Below are positions 1-43,263 of a DNA stretch of 64,000 nt, piece by piece. The number at the start of each line of letters is the position of its first letter. Within the stretch, counting starts at the first letter, position 1. The notes under the pieces were generated by a model that saw only the letters and a list, made by a program, of their open reading frames with translations, was not told the DNA's origin and did no database searches. The stretch is taken from NCBI RefSeq assembly GCF_039645565.1, contig NZ_CP147914.1:1237573-1301572 (forward strand), in the 5' to 3' direction. This DNA comes from Sulfurimonas sp. HSL1-2. Its GTDB lineage: Bacteria; Campylobacterota; Campylobacteria; Campylobacterales; Sulfurimonadaceae. Made by a program: the position numbers and the translations under genes.

Positions 1-627
1 GGCGGGGAAAGGGAACTCTACTATGAACTTCACGAGCACGGCAACGCGGCCCTGCTGGCATTCTGGTTTATTCACCTTGTGCTGCCGCTCTACTTTACAC
101 TCGAAGAGATGTATGATTTTTTTCATGCAGGTGCCGTAGAGATCGACAATCGCCCCGTTCTATTCATCGCACCTTCCATGGGCGGGAAATCCACGTTGAC
201 AGATTATTTCCTGCAACAGGGGCATCCGCTCATTTCAGATGACAAGGTACCGACATTCGTCGACAGCGAAGCCTTCATAGCCGTCGGTTCGCATCCCTAT
301 CATCGCCCCTACAGGAAATTCGAAGAGCTCGGCTACCGCGTGGATGATTTCATGACGGAGTTCAAGCCTATATCTGCCTTTTATCTCCTTGAAAAGTCCG
401 ATGCCGGAGCCGCCATCGTGATTGAAGAGATGACGGGCTTCCATAAATTCGAGGCACTAATGCCCAATTATCTCTTTCTTTTCTCTTTTTTGAAAACAAA
501 ACGTCTGAAGTATCTCTCCTCACTACTCAACAAGGTAAGGGTTTACACGATCCAGGTTCCCCATAACCTGAATCGGCTCAGTGAAGTGCACAGGGCCATC
601 TGTACACATCACAGGAGAGTGCAATGA
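1..627 (+). CDS. HPr-kinase-like protein of the lasso-peptide locus (5' partial)
   Basis: The frame is open from the first base, so the start lies outside the window; 208 residues are visible. Counting from the window edge, residues about 57-65 form a P-loop (APSMGGKST), preceded by FHAGAV and followed by LISDDKV. This order of His-Ala, P-loop and paired Asp is that of the HprK/P C-terminal fold. Genuine HprK phosphorylates PTS HPr; short HprK-like proteins encoded beside lasso cyclases are known to phosphorylate the C-terminal residue of the precursor (paeninodin system). The stop overlaps the cyclase start (ATGA at 624-627), so the two are probably co-translated, and the nearby precursor ends in Ser. 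A GTG at 79 is in frame, but the frame stays protein-like upstream of it. Inference: tailoring kinase for the peptide encoded at 2564. Confidence 0.75.
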   Translation, partial: GGERELYYELHEHGNAALLAFWFIHLVLPLYFTLEEMYDFFHAGAVEIDNRPVLFIAPSMGGKSTLTDYFLQQGHPLISDDKVPTFVDSEAFIAVGSHPYHRPYRKFEELGYRVDDFMTEFKPISAFYLLEKSDAGAAIVIEEMTGFHKFEALMPNYLFLFSFLKTKRLKYLSSLLNKVRVYTIQVPHNLNRLSEVHRAICTHHRRVQ

Positions 628-2519
628 GCGGTATCTTCGGTGTTTTTAACCGGAACGGTACACCGGTAGAGGAAGCCACAGCGACTGCAATGCTTGATGC
701 TTTTTCATATTGGTCGCCGGATGAACAGGGTGTCAAACGGGACATTTCAGTTTTGCTGGGGCATACGATGCTTCACAACACCCCCGAATCACACCATGAG
801 CAGCTGCCGCTTGATCGGGGGCAGTACTTGTTGACAATAGACGCACGGATTGACAATCGGGAAGAATTGTTTGATCAGCTCATTCTGCCTGACAGCCCAG
901 CGAGCGAGATCGGCGACAGCGAGTTTATTCTGGCTGCTTACCGAAAATGGGGGAGCAGTTGCCCCCAGTATCTTCTGGGCGACTTTGCCTTTGCGATCTT
1001 GGACAAAGAAAAAAAGCAGCTCTTCTGCGCACGGGATCATATGGGGGTCAAGCCGTTTTATTATCACCTGGACGACGATGTTTTTATCTTCGGAAATGAT
1101 ATGAAAGGGCTCCTGGCATCTAAAGAGATTCCTACAGATTTCAGTGACGAGGCCGCGGCGATCTATCTGGAGAAAGGGGAGCTTTGGCACCCGACACTGA
1201 CCTTTTTTGAAGGGATCAAAAAACTCCCTCCTGCAGCGACGCTTACCGTAACGGATTCTTCGGCATCTTTCGATACATACTGGAATATTGAGGCGACACC
1301 TCTGCAGAAAATGGAGACCTTTGAAGCGTACCGTGGAAAACTGCGTGCATTGTTAGAGGACGCCGTTCGTGTGCGCCTGCGCACGGCATACCCGGTCGCA
1401 TCACATTTGAGCGGCGGACTGGACTCTTCAATGATCAGCGTCCTTGCTGCACGCCTGCTTGCACAGAAGAACCAAAAACTGAAGGCCTATAGTTGGATTG
1501 CAGCGCCGGGCACCGAAGATGATCATACCCATCATGAATGGGCGAATAGTCATCAGATTGCCCGTGAGGAAAACATAGAGCTGGAGCATATCGATCTTGA
1601 TGCTAAAACTTTGTCGGAAATATTGCTGGGTCTTGATATCGCATGGAACGATACTACTGACCTGTGGTATGAATTTGTGCTGCGGAAATCGGCGCAACAA
1701 CAGCACATCCGAACCGTTTTATCGGGGTGGGGCGGAGATGAGTTTATCACCTACCATGGCAGGGCGATCTATGCTGATCTTTTCCGGCATGGCAAAATTG
1801 TTCAAGCGCTAACGGGACTCTGGCATAAATGTACAAAGGCACAAAAACGCACACGCTGCTTCATTCTCCAATGCTACCGTGAACTTATTCTCCCTCTTGT
1901 GCCGCGCCGGATACTATGCTATATGCCGAAAGTGGATTGTCCCTTCCTTGGTTATGTCCAATTTGCCCAGAAACATTTTGCCCGTTATGTACGCAGTCGT
2001 ACCAAGCGTTCTACCTTTATGTACCAAAAGAGCATTCGCGGCGACCAGCTTTATCTCTATCGACAGGGCCATATCCTTGCCCGCTTTGAGTCATGGGCAT
2101 CCTCCGCGTTTGCCTGCCGGCTTGAGTACAGTTACCCGCTGCTTGACAAACGACTTGTAGAGCTTGCACTGTCGCAGCCCGCTGAACTCTATTACCGGGA
2201 GGGCGTGTCACGGTTTCTTTTTCGGCATGCCGTTGCCGATATCCTGCCGGAGGAGATCCGTACCGGGAACTTTAAGTATGAACCCAATCGGATCGAACAT
2301 ATTCTCAAAACCGAACAAGAGGCTTTTGCCTATCTTCTTGAAGCGTATTCGTGGGATGATGCATGCTTGCGGGAGCACCGATATATTGACAGGGATAAGC
2401 TCCGGCTGGCCATGGAAAAATTCGTTAATCGTGAGATTGCGTTCAAGAAAAATAATATACAAACAATAAATGAAATAGAAAAGGCGTTTCTGCTCGCTAC
2501 CCTAGGAAGTCGTCGATAA
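624..2519 (+). CDS. asparagine synthetase-like lasso-peptide macrolactam cyclase
   Basis: A 631-residue protein with an N-terminal class II glutaminase-like domain (about 1-210) and a C-terminal ATP-pyrophosphatase domain. The PPi-loop SGGLDSS is at 263-269 and a second conserved loop, LSGWGGDEF, at 366-374. True asparagine synthetases start MCGI and use Cys2 as nucleophile; here the start is MSGIFG, so Cys2 is Ser and glutamine hydrolysis should be lost. That substitution is typical of lasso cyclases (the C protein), which adenylate an Asp/Glu side chain and join it to the core N-terminus. It sits directly between the HprK-like kinase and the precursor gene at 2564. Alternative: an AsnB paralogue in surface-polymer synthesis, made less likely by the kinase, precursor and PqqD-like neighbours. 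Confidence 0.82.
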   Translation: MSGIFGVFNRNGTPVEEATATAMLDAFSYWSPDEQGVKRDISVLLGHTMLHNTPESHHEQLPLDRGQYLLTIDARIDNREELFDQLILPDSPASEIGDSEFILAAYRKWGSSCPQYLLGDFAFAILDKEKKQLFCARDHMGVKPFYYHLDDDVFIFGNDMKGLLASKEIPTDFSDEAAAIYLEKGELWHPTLTFFEGIKKLPPAATLTVTDSSASFDTYWNIEATPLQKMETFEAYRGKLRALLEDAVRVRLRTAYPVASHLSGGLDSSMISVLAARLLAQKNQKLKAYSWIAAPGTEDDHTHHEWANSHQIAREENIELEHIDLDAKTLSEILLGLDIAWNDTTDLWYEFVLRKSAQQQHIRTVLSGWGGDEFITYHGRAIYADLFRHGKIVQALTGLWHKCTKAQKRTRCFILQCYRELILPLVPRRILCYMPKVDCPFLGYVQFAQKHFARYVRSRTKRSTFMYQKSIRGDQLYLYRQGHILARFESWASSAFACRLEYSYPLLDKRLVELALSQPAELYYREGVSRFLFRHAVADILPEEIRTGNFKYEPNRIEHILKTEQEAFAYLLEAYSWDDACLREHRYIDRDKLRLAMEKFVNREIAFKKNNIQTINEIEKAFLLATLGSRR

Positions 2520-2563
2520 TTCTGCTAATGTGTTAATAATAAATCGGAATGCAGAGAAAAAAA

Positions 2564-2716
2564 ATGTCTAGTAAAGAAACATTGACCGAACGCAAAAAAG
2601 TATGGAAGCAGCCCGCCTTGAAAGTCCTGGATATTCAGTCGACAAAAAGCGGGCTGGTGGATTCAAATCAGGAAAACAAGAACCACTACGTCTTTGGCGG
2701 TGCAGCCGCCAGCTAA
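2564..2716 (+). CDS. putative lasso-peptide precursor (50 aa)
   Basis: Small reading frame 44 bases after the cyclase stop. Leader residues W14, P17 and L19 make a WxxPxL motif, equivalent to the YxxPxL signature read by RRE/PqqD-like proteins. Ten residues after P17 comes Thr27, the usual -2 Thr before the cleavage site (T27-K28). The predicted core is residues 29-50: S1 G2 start, Glu at core position 9 (E37), then an N-K-N-H-Y-V-F-G-G tail ending A-A-A-S. Position 9 is a permitted acceptor for a nine-residue macrolactam ring; if the core instead began at G30, E37 would be position 8. The C-terminal Ser matches the kinase upstream. A second in-frame ATG at 2549 would add five residues; the ribosome site is weak for both. 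No homologue search could be run. Confidence 0.72.
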   Translation: MSSKETLTERKKVWKQPALKVLDIQSTKSGLVDSNQENKNHYVFGGAAAS

Positions 2717-2739
2717 TACATTTAGCCAGCAGACAGACA

Positions 2740-3891
2740 TCACTGGATGGCGAGGTCCGGCCGCACAAGTCCGGCACCCTGTTCATCCGCAGGCAGTCCC
2801 AGGTCTTCGGCGCTGCTTTTTAATTTTGTTTTGACTTCATCCGGCGTAAGGGCAGGGAACACAGAAAGTACAAGCGCTGCCGATGCCGTCACGTGAGGCG
2901 TTGCCATACTGGTACCACTCATAGTCGTATAGCCCGCATTAAGGTAGGTGGAGTAGATACTTACTCCTGGAGCCGCGAGGTCAACTTCCGGGCCGTAGCT
3001 GGAGCTTGCCGCCAGGATTCCGTTGATATTGACGGAAGAGACCGCGATCGTTTCGGGATACCTGGCCGGGTAAAGCATGGTACCGCCCGAACTCCCGTTG
3101 TTCCCGGCGGCGGCCACTTGTACGATGCCCGCGGCATGCATAGCCGTAACGGCGTCTGCCAGGGATTGGACGGTACTCGTCGCTCCGAAGCTCATGTTGA
3201 CGACTTGCATGTGGTTGTCAATACACCACTGCATCCCGTCAAGAATATCCGACAGGTTCCCCGTATTGTCGCTGCCAAGCACTTTGACGACATAGAGATT
3301 GATCTGCGGAGCGGCACCGATCACCCCGATGGTGTTATTGGCGGCTGCAATGATCCCGCTGACATGGGTACCGTGCCCGTTATCGTCCACGGCACTTTTA
3401 TGCGGGTTGATCGCACTGAAATTCCCTTTGATGTTGTCGGTCAGGTCGGGATGGTCAAGATCCGCCCCCGTATCGAGTACGGCAACGTTGATCATCGTCC
3501 CGTTGGTCTCTGCCCAGGCAAGATCTGCTTCGATCCGGTCAATACCCCAGGTCAGCTCCTGTGGCGGCTGGGGGAGAGGATCGACGGGTTTTGCTGTTCC
3601 ATGCAGCACGATATCATCGTCAATGCGGAGAATATTCTGGTTGTCAAGACTTTGCAACGCCTCGAACGCTGCATCAGGAAGCGATACCGCAAAACCGTTG
3701 ATGATCCGCAGCGGTTTAACAGGAATTACCCCCATGTTTTTAAGCAGTGCAGCCTGTTGGACAGGGTTTGAAAATCCCGGTGCAAAGACAACGATTTTCT
3801 GTTTTACATTGGCTGCGAAAACATTACCGGCAAAGATAGTGGCGATAAACAGAACAAAAAGATACTGTATCGGACGAAAACGCTTCAACAT
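2740..3891 (-). CDS. secreted subtilisin-like serine protease (peptidase S8)
   Basis: A 383-residue preproprotease. From the chosen start: signal peptide (about 1-26, ending VFA-A), an I9-like propeptide (about 30-97), then the S8 domain with catalytic Asp140 (VAVLDTGAD), His173 (NGHGTHVSG), oxyanion Asn264 (AAAGNNG) and Ser328 (GTSMATPHV). An earlier in-frame start at 3918 exists, but a perfect AAAGGAGGT ribosome site at about 3901-3909 fixes the ATG at 3891. It converges on the lasso-type precursor with only 23 bases between the stops. It is probably exported and self-processing. Whether it serves the peptide (trimming, turnover, immunity) or is just a neighbour cannot be told from sequence; it is not the usual transglutaminase-like leader peptidase (B2). 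Confidence 0.9.
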   Translation of the reverse strand: MLKRFRPIQYLFVLFIATIFAGNVFAANVKQKIVVFAPGFSNPVQQAALLKNMGVIPVKPLRIINGFAVSLPDAAFEALQSLDNQNILRIDDDIVLHGTAKPVDPLPQPPQELTWGIDRIEADLAWAETNGTMINVAVLDTGADLDHPDLTDNIKGNFSAINPHKSAVDDNGHGTHVSGIIAAANNTIGVIGAAPQINLYVVKVLGSDNTGNLSDILDGMQWCIDNHMQVVNMSFGATSTVQSLADAVTAMHAAGIVQVAAAGNNGSSGGTMLYPARYPETIAVSSVNINGILAASSSYGPEVDLAAPGVSIYSTYLNAGYTTMSGTSMATPHVTASAALVLSVFPALTPDEVKTKLKSSAEDLGLPADEQGAGLVRPDLAIQ

Positions 3892-4095
3892 AGACAACCT
3901 CCTTTGAATAAGCTTCAATCATAACAAATTCAATCTTTATTGCCACTGTTTTTGTACAATTAAAAATAACCTAATTAAATATTGTTATTTGTTAATTATG
4001 GCACTATTTTTTTGCAACATGTCAAAAAATAATCACATTTCATACAAATAAAAATATATATACGATGTATAGTATAATTCTCCAAAGGATAAGCG
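3892..4095. other. AT-rich divergent intergenic region
   Basis: About 200 bases between the divergent S8 protease and PqqD-like genes, markedly AT-rich against the window. On the minus side a TATGAT-like -10 (about 3918-3923) and the strong ribosome site serve the protease; on the plus side TATAAT at 4073-4078 serves the RRE gene. No coding frame longer than about 16 codons was found. Confidence 0.5.
4073..4078 (+). promoter_or_regulatory. -10 box of the PqqD-like gene
   Basis: Perfect TATAAT 17 bases before the GTG start, preceded by an AT-rich tract with no clear -35, as is usual for Campylobacterota sigma-70 promoters. The ribosome site AAAGGAT follows at 4084-4090. Confidence 0.55.
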
Positions 4096-4368
4096 GTGGA
4101 TTACTCAAAGAGAATTGCGGTAGCGGATACGGTCTTTTCACAAATGGTAGACGACGAGATTGTTCTGCTCGATATGGCAAGTGAGAACTATTTCGGTCTC
4201 GACAGCGTGGCAACCGATATCTGGCAGCTGCTGCAGGAAGGAAAGACCCTCCAGGAAACCGTAGATGCACTTCGCAATATGTACGAAGTCGATCTTGATA
4301 TATTGAAAAAAGACCTTGAAACATTTATAGACACTTTAATTAACAAAAAACTCGCCAAACTCGCATGA
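4096..4368 (+). CDS. PqqD-like RiPP recognition element protein (lasso B1 type)
   Basis: A 90-residue protein with the PqqD/RRE pattern: a beta-rich N-terminal third (VLLDMASENYFGLDSVATDIW, residues about 23-43, key residues N31 Y32 F33 L35 and W43) followed by three helices with LQEGKTLQETVDAL and a C-terminal L-x-L tail. RRE proteins bind the leader of a RiPP precursor (YxxPxL-type in lasso peptides) and present it to protease and cyclase. GTG start with ribosome site AAAGGAT. It stands alone under its own promoter, separated from the kinase-cyclase-precursor run by the inverted S8 gene. No transglutaminase-like B2 protease follows; that partner, if present, must lie upstream of the window. 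Confidence 0.82.
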   Translation: MDYSKRIAVADTVFSQMVDDEIVLLDMASENYFGLDSVATDIWQLLQEGKTLQETVDALRNMYEVDLDILKKDLETFIDTLINKKLAKLA

Positions 4369-4374
4369 AAATGC

Positions 4375-4404
4375 TATAATCGCCGGTAACAAGCGCTTCC
4401 GGCG
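4375..4404 (+). promoter_or_regulatory. promoter -10 and leader hairpin before the OM barrel gene
   Basis: TATAAT at 4375-4380 is followed at once by a perfect 6-bp GC inverted repeat, CGCCGG (4381-4386) and CCGGCG (4399-4404). A transcript from this -10 would start within or just after the first arm. The repeat could equally be a weak terminator of the PqqD-like gene. Confidence 0.4.
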
Positions 4405-4461: not shown

Positions 4462-5226
4462 GTGCCTTTCCCCTTGAAATCAATACTGCTGTGTTCTCTG
4501 ACAGTGATCACTCTTCAGGCTTTCGAAACAGACACTGAGATCGGGGCAGGGGTGTGGAATGCCAAAGCGTCGGGTGATTTGACCTATGATGAGAGTGGGG
4601 GGAGCGTCACCGCCGTCGGAGACCTGGGCTACAAGAACGAAAACAACTTCTATTTCTATGCAGTTTTCAAGCCGGTGAACATATCCCCCTTCGTGCCGAA
4701 CCTCAAGCTCGAGTACACGTCGATCGCCTATGAGGGGCGTACCGAAGGCTCAGTCACGTGGGGACCGTTTCTCTACCAGGCCGATGCACCGAATAAAGTG
4801 ACCGCGCTGGAGTACGATGCGACCTTCTACTATACGTTTGCCGACCTGATTTCATGGATGTCGATCGACGCCGGCATCAATGTGAAATACGTCAAAACGC
4901 GCTATACCATCGATGACAGCTCTTTTCATTATGATGAAAGCGACATTACAACGCTTCCGCAGCTCTACCTGCATGCCCGCGTTCCTGTCATGCAGCTGCC
5001 CGCCTCGGTCGATCTCTCCTACTACTATTATGATGAAGGCAGTTTCACCCTCTATGACTTCCGGTTGTCGGGACGGTATGATTTCGATGCGGTGACGACC
5101 CATTTCAGACCTTCGGTGGAACTCGGGTACCGTATTCACCGGCTCTGGCTCCAGAAACCGAGCTACAACACGAAGATCGATCTCCATTTGAGCGGCATTT
5201 ACCTGGACGCCTCGCTGCATTTTTAG
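4462..5226 (+). CDS. outer-membrane beta-barrel protein, TIGR04219-like
   Basis: A 254-residue exported protein: signal peptide of about 19 residues ending LQAF-E, then alternating aromatic/polar strands and a terminal Phe (ASLHF) as expected for insertion by the BAM complex. The opening TEIGAGVWNAKASGDLTYDE and the overall length resemble the TIGR04219 OM family common in Campylobacterota; function unknown. GTG start with a GAAGGAG ribosome site at 4451-4456. It is not obviously tied to the RRE gene in front (93-base gap with its own -10). Confidence 0.75.
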   Translation: MPFPLKSILLCSLTVITLQAFETDTEIGAGVWNAKASGDLTYDESGGSVTAVGDLGYKNENNFYFYAVFKPVNISPFVPNLKLEYTSIAYEGRTEGSVTWGPFLYQADAPNKVTALEYDATFYYTFADLISWMSIDAGINVKYVKTRYTIDDSSFHYDESDITTLPQLYLHARVPVMQLPASVDLSYYYYDEGSFTLYDFRLSGRYDFDAVTTHFRPSVELGYRIHRLWLQKPSYNTKIDLHLSGIYLDASLHF

Positions 5227-34572: not shown

Positions 34573-35106
34573 ATGAAAGCATTATTGATTGATCCCGACA
34601 CCCAATCCGTTTCCGTCCAGGATTTCGACGGACAGCCCCACAGCCTTTACACCCTTTTCGGCTCCCTGCTCGTCGACGGCAACGCCCTGCTGAAGGCCCA
34701 TACGGTCTACAGCGGCGGCGAAGCGTTTGAAAAAGGGCAGAAGGGCTTCTTTCTGGGCGAAAAGCTGCTTTTCGGCAAGGCGCTGGTCGTCGGCATGGCC
34801 GATATCGAAGAGGTGGATGCGACCATCGAAGCGGAGACCCTGCAGCAGCTCATCCGGTACGACCTGCCGGCATTCTACCGCACGGCGATCTCCCTGCTGC
34901 CATCGGATTTCACCTTTGATCAGGTCTATGCGCTCGAAGGGATGGAGGGGGCGACCGCCGAATGGGTCCTCTACGCGTTCAGTCTCGCCGACGAAGCGAC
35001 ACAGGGCTATTTTCTCGATGAACTGAAAAAGACGGTATCGGGGGAAGAGGGGGTGCATCCCTACCTGGAGAAAATGGGTAATCTCGCCATCCGTTCGATG
35101 CAATAG
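34573..35106 (+). CDS. conserved hypothetical protein
   Basis: A 177-residue soluble protein, acidic, opening [20 protein letters not shown] with a DUF-like N-terminal strand pair and a helical C-terminal half. No signal peptide, no membrane segment and no recognisable catalytic motif. Divergent from gltX; a TAAAAT stretch at 34550-34555 is a possible -10. Coding looks genuine from length and codon use. Confidence 0.65.
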
Positions 35107-35115
35107 ATAGGCGAA

Positions 35116-35140
35116 AGGTGCCTCGCTCTGGGGCACACCT
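35116..35140. terminator. stem-loop between convergent genes
   Basis: GGTGCC pairs with GGCAC-A-CC (one bulge), placed between the end of the 34573 gene and the end of the minus-strand microprotein at 35159. Runs of A follow on the plus strand (U on the minus-strand transcript precede the stem), so terminator activity is uncertain in either direction. Confidence 0.35.
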
Positions 35141-35158
35141 CAAAAAAGGCACAAAACG

Positions 35159-35281
35159 TCACTCCTCGCGACGCCGGCGCTCCTCTTTTTCAAATCGACT
35201 GTTAATGTATTGTATGGATCCGATTCCTACAAAAGCGGCAAATAGTGCGATAATAACTAGAATAATTTCTTCCGCTGTCAT
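35159..35281 (-). CDS. 40-residue single-pass membrane microprotein
   Basis: Reading frame ATG to TGA encoding MTAEEIILVIIALFAAFVGI, then GSIQYINSRFEKEERRRREE: an acidic start, one 18-residue hydrophobic helix (about 6-23) and a strongly charged, Arg/Glu-rich tail expected in the cytoplasm. AGGAAA lies seven bases ahead of the ATG. Too short for default gene callers. Topology and ribosome site argue for a real gene; the function is unknown. Confidence 0.6.
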   Translation of the reverse strand: MTAEEIILVIIALFAAFVGIGSIQYINSRFEKEERRRREE

Positions 35282-35463
35282 GTGAGGTTTCCTCTGAATG
35301 CATATTTCGTATTCATCAGACAAATCTACTCCACGCGGAATAAAAAGCGGCTTCCATTACAAAAGGATCATTTAGGCATAAATTTGAACAAAGAATCGTA
35401 CAGAGTGGCAAAAGCGTTAAAGATGAAATAAACTTGGAAATGTTGAAAAAGGAAGTTTGGAAG

Positions 35464-35538
35464 TGGTGACCCCACGGAGACTCGAACTCCGGTAACCAGA
35501 ATGAAAATCTGGGATCCTAACCGCTAGACGATGGGGCC
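35464..35538 (-). tRNA. tRNA-Glu (UUC)
   Basis: Seventy-five bases including an encoded CCA. Acceptor GGCCCCA pairs with TGGGGTC (one G-U), the anticodon arm CCAGA-TTTTCAT-TCTGG reads anticodon TTC (plus-strand 35503-35505), and the T arm contains GTTCGAGTC. Discriminator A. Confidence 0.96.
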
Positions 35539-35568
35539 ACTTTGTAACAACAATTTTGTTGAGCCGAA

Positions 35569-35574
35569 ATTATA
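35569..35574 (-). promoter_or_regulatory. -10 box of tRNA-Glu
   Basis: TATAAT on the minus strand 31 bases upstream of the mature 5' end, leaving a short precursor leader. Confidence 0.5.
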
Positions 35575-35597
35575 TTTCCGGGACGCTTAACAATCTC

Positions 35598-35625
35598 TTA
35601 AATGCCGCGATCTTGCGGCATTTAA
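35598..35625 (-). terminator. stem-loop after the REC-RHH gene
   Basis: Perfect 11-bp inverted repeat TTAAATGCCGC (35598-35608) / GCGGCATTTAA (35615-35625) seven bases beyond the stop; an A/T-rich flank follows on both sides, so it may work for the minus-strand gene. Confidence 0.6.
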
Positions 35626-35631
35626 ATGAAA

Positions 35632-36177
35632 TTACATATAGAATTCGCGAAGGGCGCGGATAATGACCGCATTTTTGGAGATGCTTTCCGCCTTGGCGTT
35701 GTCGTTGACGAGGTCATACAGGTCAAGGGGCAGGGAGATGGAGAAGGTCTTCGTTTCAACTTTTTTCTTCCGCTTGACCATATTGGTGACGTTTTGAAGC
35801 AGTTCGATGATCTTTTTCGTATCGATAGGCTTCTGGATGAAGCTGTTGACACCGATTTCAATCGTCTCGGAGATCTTCTGGATATCGTTGCTTGCAGAGA
35901 TGACAACGACCATCTGCTGCGGGTTCATCTCACGGATCTTGCGTGCAAGCTCGATACCGTCCATTTCCGGCATGATAATGTCAACAAAGACGATATCCGG
36001 CTTTTTCTCTTTGAAAAGCTCCAGGGCTTCTTTACCATTGAATGCGGATGTAACATCCTTAAAGAAGTTCTTGAACGTTGAGCTGAGCAGTTCGTTTGCA
36101 ACTGCTTCGTCTTCAACGACCATCGCACTCATCTTTTTCGTCTCTTCGGTCAGCTGAACCAGGTCAACATTTTTCAT
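35632..36177 (-). CDS. response regulator with C-terminal ribbon-helix-helix-like domain
   Basis: A 181-residue protein: receiver domain (about 14-130) with acid pair VVEDE, phospho-acceptor Asp in VFVDIIMPEMDG (about 62), Ser in VISAS and Lys in IQKPID; a basic linker KRKKK; then a roughly 40-residue tail, TFSISLP-LDLYDLVNDNAK-SKNAVIIRALREFY, reading as strand-helix-helix like MetJ/Arc/CopG domains. The tail would let the regulator dimerise and bind DNA. Ribosome site AGGAAA. No histidine kinase gene adjoins. Confidence 0.75.
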   Translation of the reverse strand: MKNVDLVQLTEETKKMSAMVVEDEAVANELLSSTFKNFFKDVTSAFNGKEALELFKEKKPDIVFVDIIMPEMDGIELARKIREMNPQQMVVVISASNDIQKISETIEIGVNSFIQKPIDTKKIIELLQNVTNMVKRKKKVETKTFSISLPLDLYDLVNDNAKAESISKNAVIIRALREFYM

Positions 36178-36278
36178 TTCTGTTTCCTCATGATGATTTC
36201 TGTCTGTATTTTACACTGTTATTCAGCAAACAACGTTAATGGAATTAAAATTGTTTACTCGTGATATTACGTTGCAAA

Positions 36279-36284
36279 ATTATA
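36279..36284 (-). promoter_or_regulatory. -10 box of the REC-RHH gene
   Basis: TATAAT on the minus strand in a very AT-rich spacer, about 100 bases before the start codon. Confidence 0.4.
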
Positions 36285-36324
36285 GTAACAATTAAATTAC
36301 ACAAACTTAAATTTATGGGAAAAA

Positions 36325-36522
36325 TCAATATTTTTTAAATTGCTCGAGCCATTCGAGGTTGGATTCGACCGTTTTTTCCTTCTGTTCCAGGAGAGAAACG
36401 ATGATCGATTTGAGGGTCTGCTCGTCCATGAATGCGAGCATATCGGGGTTGATATGGGTATCACCGCCGTAGCCGTTCAACAGTTTTTCAATGTCGTGGA
36501 TCAATTCCTCTTTTTTACTCAC
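36325..36522 (-). CDS. small conserved protein downstream of gltA
   Basis: A 65-residue helical acidic protein (KKEELIHDIEKLLNGYGGDT, SIIVSLLEQKEKTVESNLEWLEQF). GTG start overlaps the gltA TGA (GTGA), so it is translationally coupled to citrate synthase. No recognised domain. Confidence 0.6.
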   Translation of the reverse strand: MSKKEELIHDIEKLLNGYGGDTHINPDMLAFMDEQTLKSIIVSLLEQKEKTVESNLEWLEQFKKY

Positions 36523-37793
36523 TCAGGTACACTCCTTGTTTCAGGCCCGATATAGCGTTGACGCGGACGGGCGATCTTTTTCTCCGCATCGGCATGGAAT
36601 TCTAGCCACTGTGCAAGCCATCCGACGGTACGGCCTATCACAAATATAATTGTAAACATCTCCTTGGGGATTTTGAGCGCCGTCAGGATCAGCCCCGAAT
36701 AGAAATCGATGTTAGGGTAGAGCTTGCGTGAAATAAAATAGTCGTCGCTGAGGGCAACCGATTCAATCTTCTCGGCAATCTGCAGCAGTTCGCTGTCGAC
36801 ATCGAGCTCGTCTTTCATCTCGTCAAGAAGCTTTTTCAGGATTTTAGCACGCGGATCAAAATTTTTGTAAACGCGGTGGCCGAATCCCATCAGCCTGAAA
36901 TCGTCATTGGGATCCTTGGTACGGGCGATAAACTCGTCAACACGCTCCACGGAGCCGATGAATTCAAGCTGTGCGATGACCGACTCGTTCGCCCCGCCGT
37001 GGGCCCGCCCCCACAGGGCATTGATACCCGCCGTAATCGCTGCATAGGGGTGCGCCCCCGTCGAGGCAACGGACCGAACCACCGTCGTCGAGGCATTCTG
37101 CTCATGGTCGGCATGGAGTGTGAAGATCGTATCGAGGGCGCGCACCTGCACCTCGGGGATCTTCAGGTTCTGCCCGGGATAGGCGTGGATCATATAGAGA
37201 AAATTTTCGGTAAAGGAGCGCTCAAGGTCGGGATAGATGAAGGGAATCCCGAGGGAACGCCGGTAGGCGAACGCCGCCAGGGTAGGGACCTTGGCAAGCA
37301 GACGGCGGCGCATCACCTGCAGGTCCTCGTCGTTGCGCATCATGATATGTTCCGAATAGAAGGTCGAGAGCGCAGAGACGGCGGAGGAGAGCATCGCCAT
37401 GGGGTGGGCGTTGTCCGGAAAAGAGTAGAAGAGGTTCTTCAACCCTTCATGGACATACGCCCTCTTGCGAAATTCATAATCGTACGCAGCCAGTTCCTCA
37501 GGAGAGGGGAGTTCGCCGTTGAGCAGCAGGTAGCAGACCTCAAGATAGCTCTTTTTCATCGCCAGTTCTTCGATAGGGTAGCCGCGGTAGCGCAATTCAC
37601 CCTTGGCCCCATCTATATAGGTAATGGTTGAGCTGCAGCTGGCCGTCGAAGTAAATCCGGGATCGTAGGTAAACATCCCCGTCTGTTTGAATAGATCCCG
37701 AATATCGATCACATCCTGACCTACGGTCGGATGCATGATACTGAATTCGTAGCTGTTTCCAGTGCGATTGTCTGTCAAGGTCACGGTGGCCAT
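36519..37793 (-). CDS. gltA: citrate synthase
   Basis: A 424-residue type II (hexameric-type) citrate synthase condensing oxaloacetate and acetyl-CoA. Catalytic regions: LHADHEQNASTTVVR (His), GRAHGGANE (His) and MGFGHRVYKNFDPR (with the Asp further on). The ATG at 37793 lies behind AAGGAG; the frame extends to 37934 without likely coding. With icd and oor it closes the oxidative arm; in rTCA organisms it coexists with ATP-citrate lyase, not seen here. Confidence 0.95.
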   Translation of the reverse strand: MATVTLTDNRTGNSYEFSIMHPTVGQDVIDIRDLFKQTGMFTYDPGFTSTASCSSTITYIDGAKGELRYRGYPIEELAMKKSYLEVCYLLLNGELPSPEELAAYDYEFRKRAYVHEGLKNLFYSFPDNAHPMAMLSSAVSALSTFYSEHIMMRNDEDLQVMRRRLLAKVPTLAAFAYRRSLGIPFIYPDLERSFTENFLYMIHAYPGQNLKIPEVQVRALDTIFTLHADHEQNASTTVVRSVASTGAHPYAAITAGINALWGRAHGGANESVIAQLEFIGSVERVDEFIARTKDPNDDFRLMGFGHRVYKNFDPRAKILKKLLDEMKDELDVDSELLQIAEKIESVALSDDYFISRKLYPNIDFYSGLILTALKIPKEMFTIIFVIGRTVGWLAQWLEFHADAEKKIARPRQRYIGPETRSVPE

Positions 37794-40587: not shown

Positions 40588-41220
40588 CTATTTTGGCATA
40601 AGCGGTCTCGGTACCGGATGGATAGCCGGACGCGTAATTAACATGTCCAGGATCAGCAGTTTCGGTACCCAGCGGCTTTTAAATGCGGAGTTGTCACCGT
40701 CAAGCACCAAAATGCTCTTAAACGCTTCCAGATTGGCTACATGAACGCTGCCGACTCTCTCAAGCGCTTCTTCCATCTGTGCCGCACTGAGACCGTAGAT
40801 CATCTTAATACCGCGTTGATGCATGTTCTGGGCAACCGTGAGCAGGACGCCGCCCTCTTTCCATTCGATGGCATAGAAGCCGAGGTTACCGATACGGTCG
40901 ATTTGCGTTACCTTCCTGGCCGCAAAAATAAGATCAAGCGAACGTCCCAGCTCATAGTGATAGTGATAAGGCGGCTGTGTCACGGCCAGTTCGTAGACGA
41001 CATGCCGTCCCCCCTGCACTTCATACAGCGTACGCCTGATCGTGAGACCCTGCATGCCGATACGGTCTTCGGCGATCTTTTCCGTACTGAGGGCCAGACG
41101 TTCCTGTCCGATTTCAAACCCTAGAAGCAGATCATCTTTTTCAATAATAGTGGGTGAACTGCAGCCGATAAAAAGCACGCTGCAAATACTGATAAATAGC
41201 GGTTTCAATCTCAACTCCAT
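40588..41220 (-). CDS. putative lipoprotein divergent from tetR
   Basis: A 210-residue protein with lipobox LFIG-C (Cys20: MELRLKPLFISICSVLFIGC). Mature part is mixed alpha/beta with RTLYEVQGGRHVVYELAVT, LDLIFAARKVTQIDRIGNLGFYAIEW and an Arg/Pro-rich end; no family recognised. Divergent from the TetR gene across a spacer with four operator-like sites, so it is a likely regulatory target. Confidence 0.65.
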   Translation of the reverse strand: MELRLKPLFISICSVLFIGCSSPTIIEKDDLLLGFEIGQERLALSTEKIAEDRIGMQGLTIRRTLYEVQGGRHVVYELAVTQPPYHYHYELGRSLDLIFAARKVTQIDRIGNLGFYAIEWKEGGVLLTVAQNMHQRGIKMIYGLSAAQMEEALERVGSVHVANLEAFKSILVLDGDNSAFKSRWVPKLLILDMLITRPAIHPVPRPLMPK

Positions 41221-41266
41221 ATAAAAAAATATCAATAGCTGACAAATGCGATTTTAAGACCTAATG

Positions 41267-41272
41267 ATTATA
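41267..41272 (-). promoter_or_regulatory. -10 box of the lipoprotein gene
   Basis: TATAAT on the minus strand about 46 bases before the ATG at 41220; TetR site A (41304-41320) sits just upstream of where its -35 would be. Confidence 0.5.
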
Positions 41273-41303
41273 GCGGACCGGCACTTGACTGTTTATAAAC
41301 AAA

Positions 41304-41415
41304 ATGAACATACGTTAATTTACTGTGCGAACAAAAAGAACAATCGTTCACTTTTGATTAAGGATAAATTAACGGACGTTCATATACACTTTCCAAAACA
41401 TGAACATTCGTTAAT
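41304..41415. promoter_or_regulatory. four-site TetR operator array
   Basis: Four copies of the partial palindrome GAAC-N4-GTT(A/C): site A 41304-41320 (ATGAACATACGTTAATT), B 41337-41351 (GAACAATCGTTC core), C 41367-41383 (reverse orientation, ATGAACGTCCGTTAATT), D 41400-41415 (ATGAACATTCGTTAAT). Centres are about 32 bases apart, close to three helical turns. Site C overlaps the region expected for the tetR -35 and D lies in the tetR leader just before the ribosome site. Confidence 0.65.
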
Positions 41416-41427
41416 AAGGAGTCATTA

Positions 41428-42051
41428 ATGCCCGAAAACAGGGAGTTTAAGAAAGGTGGCGATACAAAGAAGCTGATCGAGGAAGCTGCCATGGATCTCT
41501 TCGCGGAACATGGCTACAAAGGTGCTTCAGTACGCAAAATCGCTGCAAAAGTCGGGATCAGGGAGAGTGCGCTTTACAACCATTTTGAAAACAAAGAAGC
41601 GATTTTCCTGGCCGTCGCCGGGAGGGTTTTCGCCTCGCCTTTTGCCCACCAGAAGACCGATGATTTTGTACAGGAAAATGCGAAAAAGGGAAGGTCTTTC
41701 CTGCATAAATTCATGACCGAATTCAAGCTGATGACGTTCGATAAAAAGTACGAAAAACTCTTCCGTTTCATGCTGATCGAACTGATGCAGAATGACGTGT
41801 TGCGCAGCGGTTTCCGGCAGGAGTTCCATGAGGCGAATATCAAGGTACTCTCTTCGGGTTTCTTCATCATGATGCAGGAGGGCCTTATCCGCTCCAATGA
41901 CCCTATGACGCTCGCCAATGCCTTCCTGGGACAGCTTTTCTACCTGCGGCTGCAGGTCAGTCTCCTGAAGGCTGACGGTATGCCTACGACGGCACTGTCG
42001 ACGGCATTTGAAAAACAGCTCGACCTCTTCTGGTCATCGATCAGTGAATAA
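41428..42051 (+). CDS. TetR/AcrR family transcriptional regulator
   Basis: A 207-residue repressor-type protein: N-terminal TetR helix-turn-helix (about 17-58: AAMDLFAEHGYKGASVRKIA and KVGIRESALYNHFENKEAIF) followed by a helical ligand-binding domain of unknown specificity. Ribosome site AAGGAG. The divergent lipoprotein and the palindromic sites in the spacer suggest autoregulation plus control of the lipoprotein, possibly of more distant genes. Confidence 0.9.
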   Translation: MPENREFKKGGDTKKLIEEAAMDLFAEHGYKGASVRKIAAKVGIRESALYNHFENKEAIFLAVAGRVFASPFAHQKTDDFVQENAKKGRSFLHKFMTEFKLMTFDKKYEKLFRFMLIELMQNDVLRSGFRQEFHEANIKVLSSGFFIMMQEGLIRSNDPMTLANAFLGQLFYLRLQVSLLKADGMPTTALSTAFEKQLDLFWSSISE

Positions 42052-42081
42052 ATATATGGGAAAAAAGAGATAAGGAAGAAA

Positions 42082-42397
42082 GGTACAACGGTAAGCCGGG
42101 TTCTGTTGATGCGATAATTTATCTACTGCATCCGTTACCGGATGCCTCCAGCGAAACAAAAGCATTGTAAGACGCTTACCATCTGTTTCTTGCTGCCAGG
42201 CTGGGTTTACATAGCTTCCGCCATTGCTGGCGGAACTGGTAGGCTCTTACCCCACCGTTTCACCCTTACCGCTTGCGCGGCGGTCTGCTCTCTGTTGCAC
42301 TGTCCCTCGGCTTGCGCCGGCCATCCGTTAGATGGAGCCCTGTCTTACGGCAGCCCGGACTTTCCTCTTGAAAATCAAGCTATCGCTCGTTGTACCG
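42082..42397 (-). ncRNA. rnpB: RNase P RNA
   Basis: On the minus strand the hallmark 5' element GAGGAAAGTCCGGGCT and the 3' element ACAGAACCCGGCTTAC are both present, as are the conserved GAAACGGTGGGG-type and AGAG-A cores. The P1 helix is formed by GGTACAAC (near 42396) with GTTGTACC (near 42082), which sets the ends at about 42397 and 42082. Catalytic subunit of the tRNA 5'-processing enzyme. Any long plus-strand frame across this region is spurious. Confidence 0.95.
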
Positions 42398-42402
42398 GTG
42401 AT

Positions 42403-42408
42403 ATTATA
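42403..42408 (-). promoter_or_regulatory. -10 box of rnpB
   Basis: TATAAT on the minus strand six bases upstream of the deduced P1 5' end. Confidence 0.6.
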
Positions 42409-42670
42409 GCATATGACCGGCGATCAGAACAGGAAGCATATTATATAATATTACAATACTCATCCAAATACCAATCATCCCGCCCTGCTCTTAAAATACA
42501 TGCGAGACCATTTTGGTCATTTGTAGAGATACGGGGAGATTTTTTTTGCGGCATTGTAGCCGGCCCAAAAAAGAATAATGGATTGCGATCCTATGAACGG
42601 CGCCCTCTTCTACTGTTTTCTTGGGTTAAGTGGCTATATAAGATATTATATAATATTAGTTATTGGCTCA
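42409..42670. other. gene-free AT-rich region with a 16-bp direct repeat
   Basis: Between the rnpB promoter and the oor terminator. ATATTATATAATATTA occurs at 42438-42453 and again at 42643-42658; the unit is itself nearly palindromic. Between them lie a GACC-ATTTT-GGTC hairpin (near 42507-42519) and a T8 tract, but no convincing gene. Confidence 0.4.
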
Positions 42671-42696
42671 AAAAAAAGCGGCCCGATGCCGCCTTT
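42671..42696 (-). terminator. rho-independent terminator of the oor operon
   Basis: On the minus strand: GC stem GCGGC (42688-42692) / GCCGC (42678-42682) followed by seven T (A7 at 42671-42677), starting a few bases after the oorC stop. Confidence 0.85.
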
Positions 42697-42699
42697 TCC

Positions 42700-43263
42700 T
42701 TACGCTGCGAGCGTAACGCCGGACTCGATTGCGTACTTGACGCCGAGTTCCCATGCTTTGAGGTTCGCTTCGTGTACTTTTTTCGGTACTTTGGAGAGCA
42801 TGACCTCTTGGAGGGATTCCGGGTTGAGAACGCTTGTGATCTGGTTGGCAATTGCCATCGCAACAACAGACTGCGTAATCACGTTACCGACCTCTTCTTT
42901 TGCGATCGTAATAATGGGGATCTCAACGATAGTCCATGTCTGACGGTCTTCGTCTGTCGGGTGAACCAGGTTCGGGTCGACAACGATAACGCCGCCCGGC
43001 TTTACACCCTTCTTGAAAGACTGGTAGCTGACGTCCGCAACGGAAAGCATGAAATCGATCTCGCCTTCGTTCGCGTACGGGTAGCGGATCTCTTCATCGT
43101 CAAGCGTAATGTCAACGACGGTCGGGCCGCCACGGACCTGGGAAGTATAGGTCGCAGTCTTCAAACCGAAACCACCGTCTTTGATCTTACAGGCCGCCAT
43201 GATTTCGCCGGCGAGGAGAACCCCCTGCCCGCCTACACCGGTAAAGCGCAATGTATGTCTCAT
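42700..43263 (-). CDS. oorC: 2-oxoglutarate:ferredoxin oxidoreductase gamma subunit
   Basis: A 187-residue gamma domain (LRFTGVGGQGVLLAGEIMAAC at the N terminus, the GxGGQG loop of the family). With OorA, OorB and OorD it interconverts 2-oxoglutarate and succinyl-CoA using ferredoxin/flavodoxin, reversible and hence usable in the reductive TCA cycle. Last gene of the operon, directly before a terminator. Confidence 0.93.
   Translation of the reverse strand: MRHTLRFTGVGGQGVLLAGEIMAACKIKDGGFGLKTATYTSQVRGGPTVVDITLDDEEIRYPYANEGEIDFMLSVADVSYQSFKKGVKPGGVIVVDPNLVHPTDEDRQTWTIVEIPIITIAKEEVGNVITQSVVAMAIANQITSVLNPESLQEVMLSKVPKKVHEANLKAWELGVKYAIESGVTLAA

Follow-up and report, generated by a model that had tools for sequence, protein, structure and literature searches.

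Characterised lasso-peptide kinases share the catalytic residues His-Lys-Asp-Asp and target the C-terminal serine of the linear precursor (PMC9266682; PMC8498205), whereas the kinase BsfK phosphorylates Ser3 and not a C-terminal serine (PMC10368454). The paeninodin-type clusters of Bacillota, such as the annotated one of Priestia aryabhattai pB2.3 (L077), resemble the locus described here in their split B1 and B2, lasso cyclase, ABC exporter, short precursor with a W/YxxPxL motif and Thr(-2), and HprK-like kinase with the HKDD motif. They differ in gene order (C-A-K-B1-B2-D versus D-B2-K-C-A-(S8)-B1 here), their cyclase falls in a separate clade, and their kinase is ~25% identical over half its length. 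The BsfK-type lassos of Bradymonadales, likewise from a Gram-negative host, also pair an HprK-like kinase with separate B1 and B2 proteins, but have Ile(-2) and Ser3 phosphorylation (PMC10368454) in place of the Thr(-2) and C-terminal serine found here. For B1, the closest solved relative is the lasso RRE TbiB1 (PDB 5v1u/5v1v; E 4.5e-18), whereas the B1 gene here lies behind an inverted protease gene. Loci in Sulfurovum and Campylobacterales metagenome-assembled genomes (MAGs; L047-L056, L067, L101 and L105) carry the same gene set, mostly in the same order, with cyclases in the same fully supported clade (100/100). They lack the S8 protease, which is specific to the sub-lineage of our locus, and several Sulfurovum loci occupy a dsbC-rsmG site instead of the aspS-nadK site.

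Here we analyse a 64,000-nucleotide stretch (the window; bases 1237573-1301572 of a 2.52 Mb genome on one contig), which begins inside a complete lasso-peptide gene set of a Campylobacterota genome; the product of this set is probably phosphorylated. Gene content, protein families, motifs, conservation and a cyclase tree make it very likely that a lasso peptide is the exported product of the locus, and from these we infer the chemistry, threading, phosphorylation site and export discussed below. The cluster is ordinary in kind, a kinase-bearing lasso system, but it is complete, conserved and located in a neglected phylum, where it is one of a family of lasso clusters that has drawn little notice. 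It would extend the sources of lasso peptides to this phylum, including sulfur-cycling bacteria.

Gene content and layout of the locus

The edge of the window splits the cluster, with the exporter gene D and B2 sitting directly upstream. Read from there on the plus strand, the genes encode an ABC exporter (593 aa), B2 (161 aa), a kinase (298 aa), a cyclase (631 aa) and a precursor (50 aa). Operon-like overlaps of 4 to 16 bases join D to B2, B2 to K and K to C, and 44 bases separate the cyclase from the precursor. A gene for a secreted subtilase follows in inverted orientation, and after it comes B1, back on the plus strand, giving the full order D-B2-K-C-A, subtilase, B1 (Table 1). All parts named in the initial annotation (kinase, cyclase, 50-residue precursor, inverted protease and PqqD-like protein) indeed lie within the first 4.4 kb. 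Its remark that their order departs from the textbook layout is true, although much of the difference is due to the window edge, and Sulfurovum MAGs likewise show D-B2-K-C-A followed further downstream by B1.

Table 1 Features of the lasso locus and its right flank, in window coordinates
Feature	Position	Strand	Remarks
HprK-like lasso-peptide kinase K	1..627	+	C-terminal 208 of 298 residues in window; gene start ~270 bases upstream of window
Lasso macrolactam cyclase C	624..2519	+	MSG start; motifs SGGLDSS and SGWGGDE; NF033535 E 1.6e-124; placed by tree
Precursor A, 50 aa	2564..2716	+	Leader ending ...QSTK; core SGLVDSNQENKNHYVFGGAAAS; E 1.9e-5 against paeninodin family NF033524
Secreted S8 subtilase, accessory candidate	2740..3888	-	PF00082 E 6.7e-61
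B1, PqqD-like RRE	4096..4368	+	Leader binding expected; PqqD E 2.3e-16; NF033536 E 3.6e-13
Promoter-like site TCGCCA-17-TATAAT	4352..4380	+	Overlaps B1 3' end
TIGR04219 outer-membrane protein	4462..5226	+	Right flank, outside cluster; adjoins aspS in cluster-less sister genomes

B2 matches the NCBIfam lasso B2 model NF033537 with 79.8 bits, over the cut-off of 33, as well as the transglutaminase-like family PF13471 (E 4.9e-21). B1 reaches 49.5 bits against the lasso PqqD chaperone model NF033536, under its 80-bit cut-off. The cyclase and the precursor likewise stay under their curated NCBIfam cut-offs, which is a point against our reading. The full gene content, the cyclase tree and the conservation of the precursor nevertheless agree on a lasso-type RiPP locus, as had been proposed initially. 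The promoter-like site at the end of B1 probably serves the downstream outer-membrane protein gene.

The cyclase groups with lasso cyclases

The best family for the cyclase is the lasso cyclase model NF033535 (417 bits, under the 525-bit cut-off), which is also the best model for all five cyclases of Campylobacterota relatives that were scanned. Behind it follows the asparagine synthetase family TIGR01536 (E 4.6e-68), a match that speaks for a surface-polymer or other AsnB-like amidotransferase with coincidental neighbours. However, the protein lacks Cys2 and begins MSG, whereas AsnB proteins, among them one encoded in this genome, begin MCG. In a tree of 38 proteins, it groups with Sulfurovum and Campylobacterales MAG cyclases in a 14-row clade (support 100/100), nested in a lasso clade (100/99) that contains an annotated lasso cyclase and one adjoining an annotated lasso B2, with the AsnB proteins outside. 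Several branches of this tree are long and some deep positions unsure, but the placement of the window cyclase is unaffected. On the tree, a surface-polymer AsnB is rejected and, with B1, B2, precursor and exporter all adjoining, any AsnB-like amidotransferase is extremely improbable.

The precursor and its predicted product

The precursor consists of a leader (...KKVWKQPALKVLDIQSTK) and the core SGLVDSNQENKNHYVFGGAAAS. It shows the W/YxxPxL leader motif (WKQPAL), Thr(-2) and an Asp/Glu at core positions 7-9 (E9), and its core features are Ser1, Glu9 and a C-terminal serine. Applied to the 455 short open reading frames of the window, this pattern matched the precursor and one 32-codon frame elsewhere, which argues against a chance match. 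Against the paeninodin precursor family NF033524, the window precursor scores 24.3 bits, below the cut-off of 27, and precursors of relatives score 23.9 and 22.6 bits. The cyclases and precursors of this clade are hence easily missed by current curated models.

In relatives, the precursors adjoin the cyclase and share W/YxxP, Thr(-2), a small residue 1 and usually Gly2. By a fixed rule, 13 of 14 precursors carry an acidic residue (Asp or Glu) at core 8 or 9, and the remaining one fits when the usual Trp-to-Thr spacing of 13 residues is applied; the joint shuffled-core probability, with all 14 counted as fitting, is ~1e-11. Five further Sulfurovaceae precursors were read by eye; four fit and one (L106) misses, with its acid at position 10. 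The initial annotation had named two findings that would tell against it, a cyclase placed within surface-polymer AsnB proteins and a precursor frame not conserved in relatives that keep the cyclase; given the tree and the precursors kept beside the cyclase, neither was obtained.

In the proposed pathway, B1 as the RRE would bind the Trp-x-x-Pro-x-Leu leader, and the HprK-like kinase would phosphorylate the linear precursor, most likely at the C-terminal Ser22. B2 would then cleave after Thr(-2)-Lys(-1), and the ATP-dependent cyclase would link the Ser1 amino group to the Glu9 side chain, forming a 9-residue ring around the tail before the ABC transporter exports the product. The predicted product is thus the Ser1-Glu9 macrolactam of the 22 residues SGLVDSNQENKNHYVFGGAAAS, with a computed mass of 2246.04 Da, or 2326.00 Da as the monophosphate. 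This probably phosphorylated peptide is directly testable. The core shows no obvious bulky plug residues, so a macrolactam RiPP whose ring closes without threading has to be weighed as well. We regard it as improbable, since every lasso-defining protein is present and characterised systems with the same protein set are established to give lassos (PMC9266682).

In the sister species G191, the cyclase frame continues in frame, without a stop, into the precursor (699 aa; L012 7496-9595). Since the G191 precursor also starts with an ATG of its own, together with a Shine-Dalgarno-like GAGAGG, the continuity may be due to chance, to gene fusion or to an error in sequencing.

Kinase and site of phosphorylation

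By sequence alone, the likeness of the kinase to HprK is weak. Its predicted fold (mean pLDDT 83) has an HPr kinase as best Foldseek match (E 2.8e-6), and the catalytic His-Lys-Asp-Asp is kept in 19 of 19 aligned kinases, Bacillota ones included. The model thus indicates an HprK fold with the catalytic motif of lasso kinases. A plasmid search with the kinase returned two matches only, both weak and from Bacillota.

For the target residue, we slightly favour Ser22. The precursors of the window, G371, G249 and L053 all end in serine, the residue targeted by the characterised Firmicute and proteobacterial kinases. Many kinase-bearing relatives lack it, however, and their precursors end in SG (G191), TQ (L049), LG (L050), PA (L052) or PL (L055). 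Together with the Ser3 activity of BsfK (PMC10368454), these endings keep Ser22 at the level of a prediction and lend a substantial, though smaller, probability to a lasso pathway in which the kinase targets a residue other than Ser22 (Ser1 or Ser6, for instance) or has a different role.

A separate arrangement recurs in Campylobacterota, in which an HprK-like kinase is joined by a PqqD-like protein and often a nucleotidyltransferase (L034 6339-9034, L035 6188-9441, L107 4549-7486, L029, L032 and L132). It adjoins short proteins with a Tat-like signal (RRxFLKKxxYxAP) and variable tails, and no lasso cyclase was found within the stretches read. Possibly, it represents another kinase-dependent peptide modification. 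Other B1 matches of the family (genus g72, G399 and G303) lie in an HprK-PqqD arrangement where the stretch read contains no lasso cyclase, and were rejected as lasso loci.

The secreted subtilase

Read from its sequence, the subtilase has a signal-like N-terminus and the D/H/S motifs. Its orthologue in G191 is 88% identical and occupies the same inverted place. Since other lasso loci are without an S8 subtilase, a mere local neighbour was favoured at first; this was dropped on the evidence of G371, whose cyclase is the closest one outside the genus and which has a broken, likewise inverted orthologue beside B1. No further orthologue at that level was found among 100 Sulfurovaceae or 61 family genomes, which ties the subtilase to the sub-lineage of the window among the genomes searched. 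We tentatively regard it as an accessory confined to this sub-lineage; our first guess at its role, action on the exported peptide, we consider rather doubtful.

Apparent exchange of the core cassette

Compared with G191, synonymous divergence (dS) is 0.16-0.29 in the flanks, 0.6-0.7 in B1 and the subtilase, and 1.3-1.9 from D to C; these estimates are near saturation, and other pairs compared are saturated throughout. The machinery genes are under purifying selection (dN/dS 0.09-0.17). In the pair L051/L052, K and C reach a dS of 2.2-2.4 versus 0.7-1.1 elsewhere, and in L014/L049 the divergence of kinase and cyclase likewise exceeds that of B1 and the flanks. In the simplest reading of these sequence comparisons, alleles of the core cassette appear to have been exchanged between relatives. 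An extended version, for the lasso loci of Campylobacterota in general, would be a fixed chassis with an exchangeable cassette: B1 (in Sulfurovum also exporter and B2) resident at one site, K, C and A swapping or diversifying as a unit, and the subtilase as a dedicated accessory of one sub-lineage. This is a speculative model that we hold to be less likely than its opposite. Because divergence or exchange is so much greater in the core genes than in their neighbours, our guess for the role of the peptide is competition with close relatives. Sister genomes with, without and with an exchanged cluster make both the evolution and the ecological role of the locus testable.

Site history

The cluster lies between aspS and an outer-membrane protein gene adjoining nadK. 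From its AT-richness, the initial annotation had taken a hint of acquisition. GC is indeed about 0.50 in the lasso region versus a window mean of 0.56, with both GC and GC3 below those of the flanks. The lowest-GC kilobases of the window lie elsewhere, though, at 35-37 and 41-42 kb (GC is 0.445-0.48 over 35001-37000 and 41001-43000), so that AT-richness by itself says little for acquisition. An island of recent foreign origin would also account for the D-to-C divergence far above that of the flanks and for the absence of B1 and S8 from five of the seven members of the genus, of which two are complete genomes.

Against a recent insertion stands a relic in another genus of the family (G404, L028 8119-10368), where the aspS-nadK site holds pieces of the exporter gene and a B1 that is still intact. 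Furthermore, the sister genomes G305 and G288 are without the cluster, and their junction keeps ~75 bases matching the end of B1, including its last 12 codons, and the sequence beyond. This junction looks like a deletion scar, although the stretch overlaps the promoter-like site and could be conserved for itself. Both the relic in G404 and the B1-like remnant point to a locus that is probably old and has been lost more than once, which weakens the recent island to an unlikely reading. The hint of acquisition thus holds in part, for core alleles that look exchanged but not for the locus, which looks old.

In Sulfurovaceae, orphan-like B1 genes lie beside rsmG (L129 2923-3201 and L134 7757-8044), and the stretches read there show no lasso cyclase. 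It is possible that they are RRE genes left after loss of the cassette.

Distribution in the phylum

The Campylobacterota host given in the initial annotation was borne out, the genome being akin to named Sulfurovum and Campylobacterales records. Of 397 genomes sampled across the phylum, 5 contained the cyclase at E below 1e-60, and more cyclase loci came from named Sulfurovum, Campylobacterales and a few Pseudomonadota and 'Deltaproteobacteria' MAGs. Within the order, 26 of 399 genomes carried kinase relatives, a count that includes the HprK-PqqD arrangement without a lasso cyclase. Our search of the open-access literature returned no paper on lasso clusters of Campylobacterota; automatic predictions of such clusters probably exist. 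The statement that they are rarely reported from this phylum therefore stands for the open-access literature, while in genomes the clusters are not very rare.

Two loci contain two cyclases each, L013 7557-11183 (G371) and L101 3353-8011 (G547), the latter also with two kinases and two precursors, which suggests duplicated or stacked lasso cassettes.
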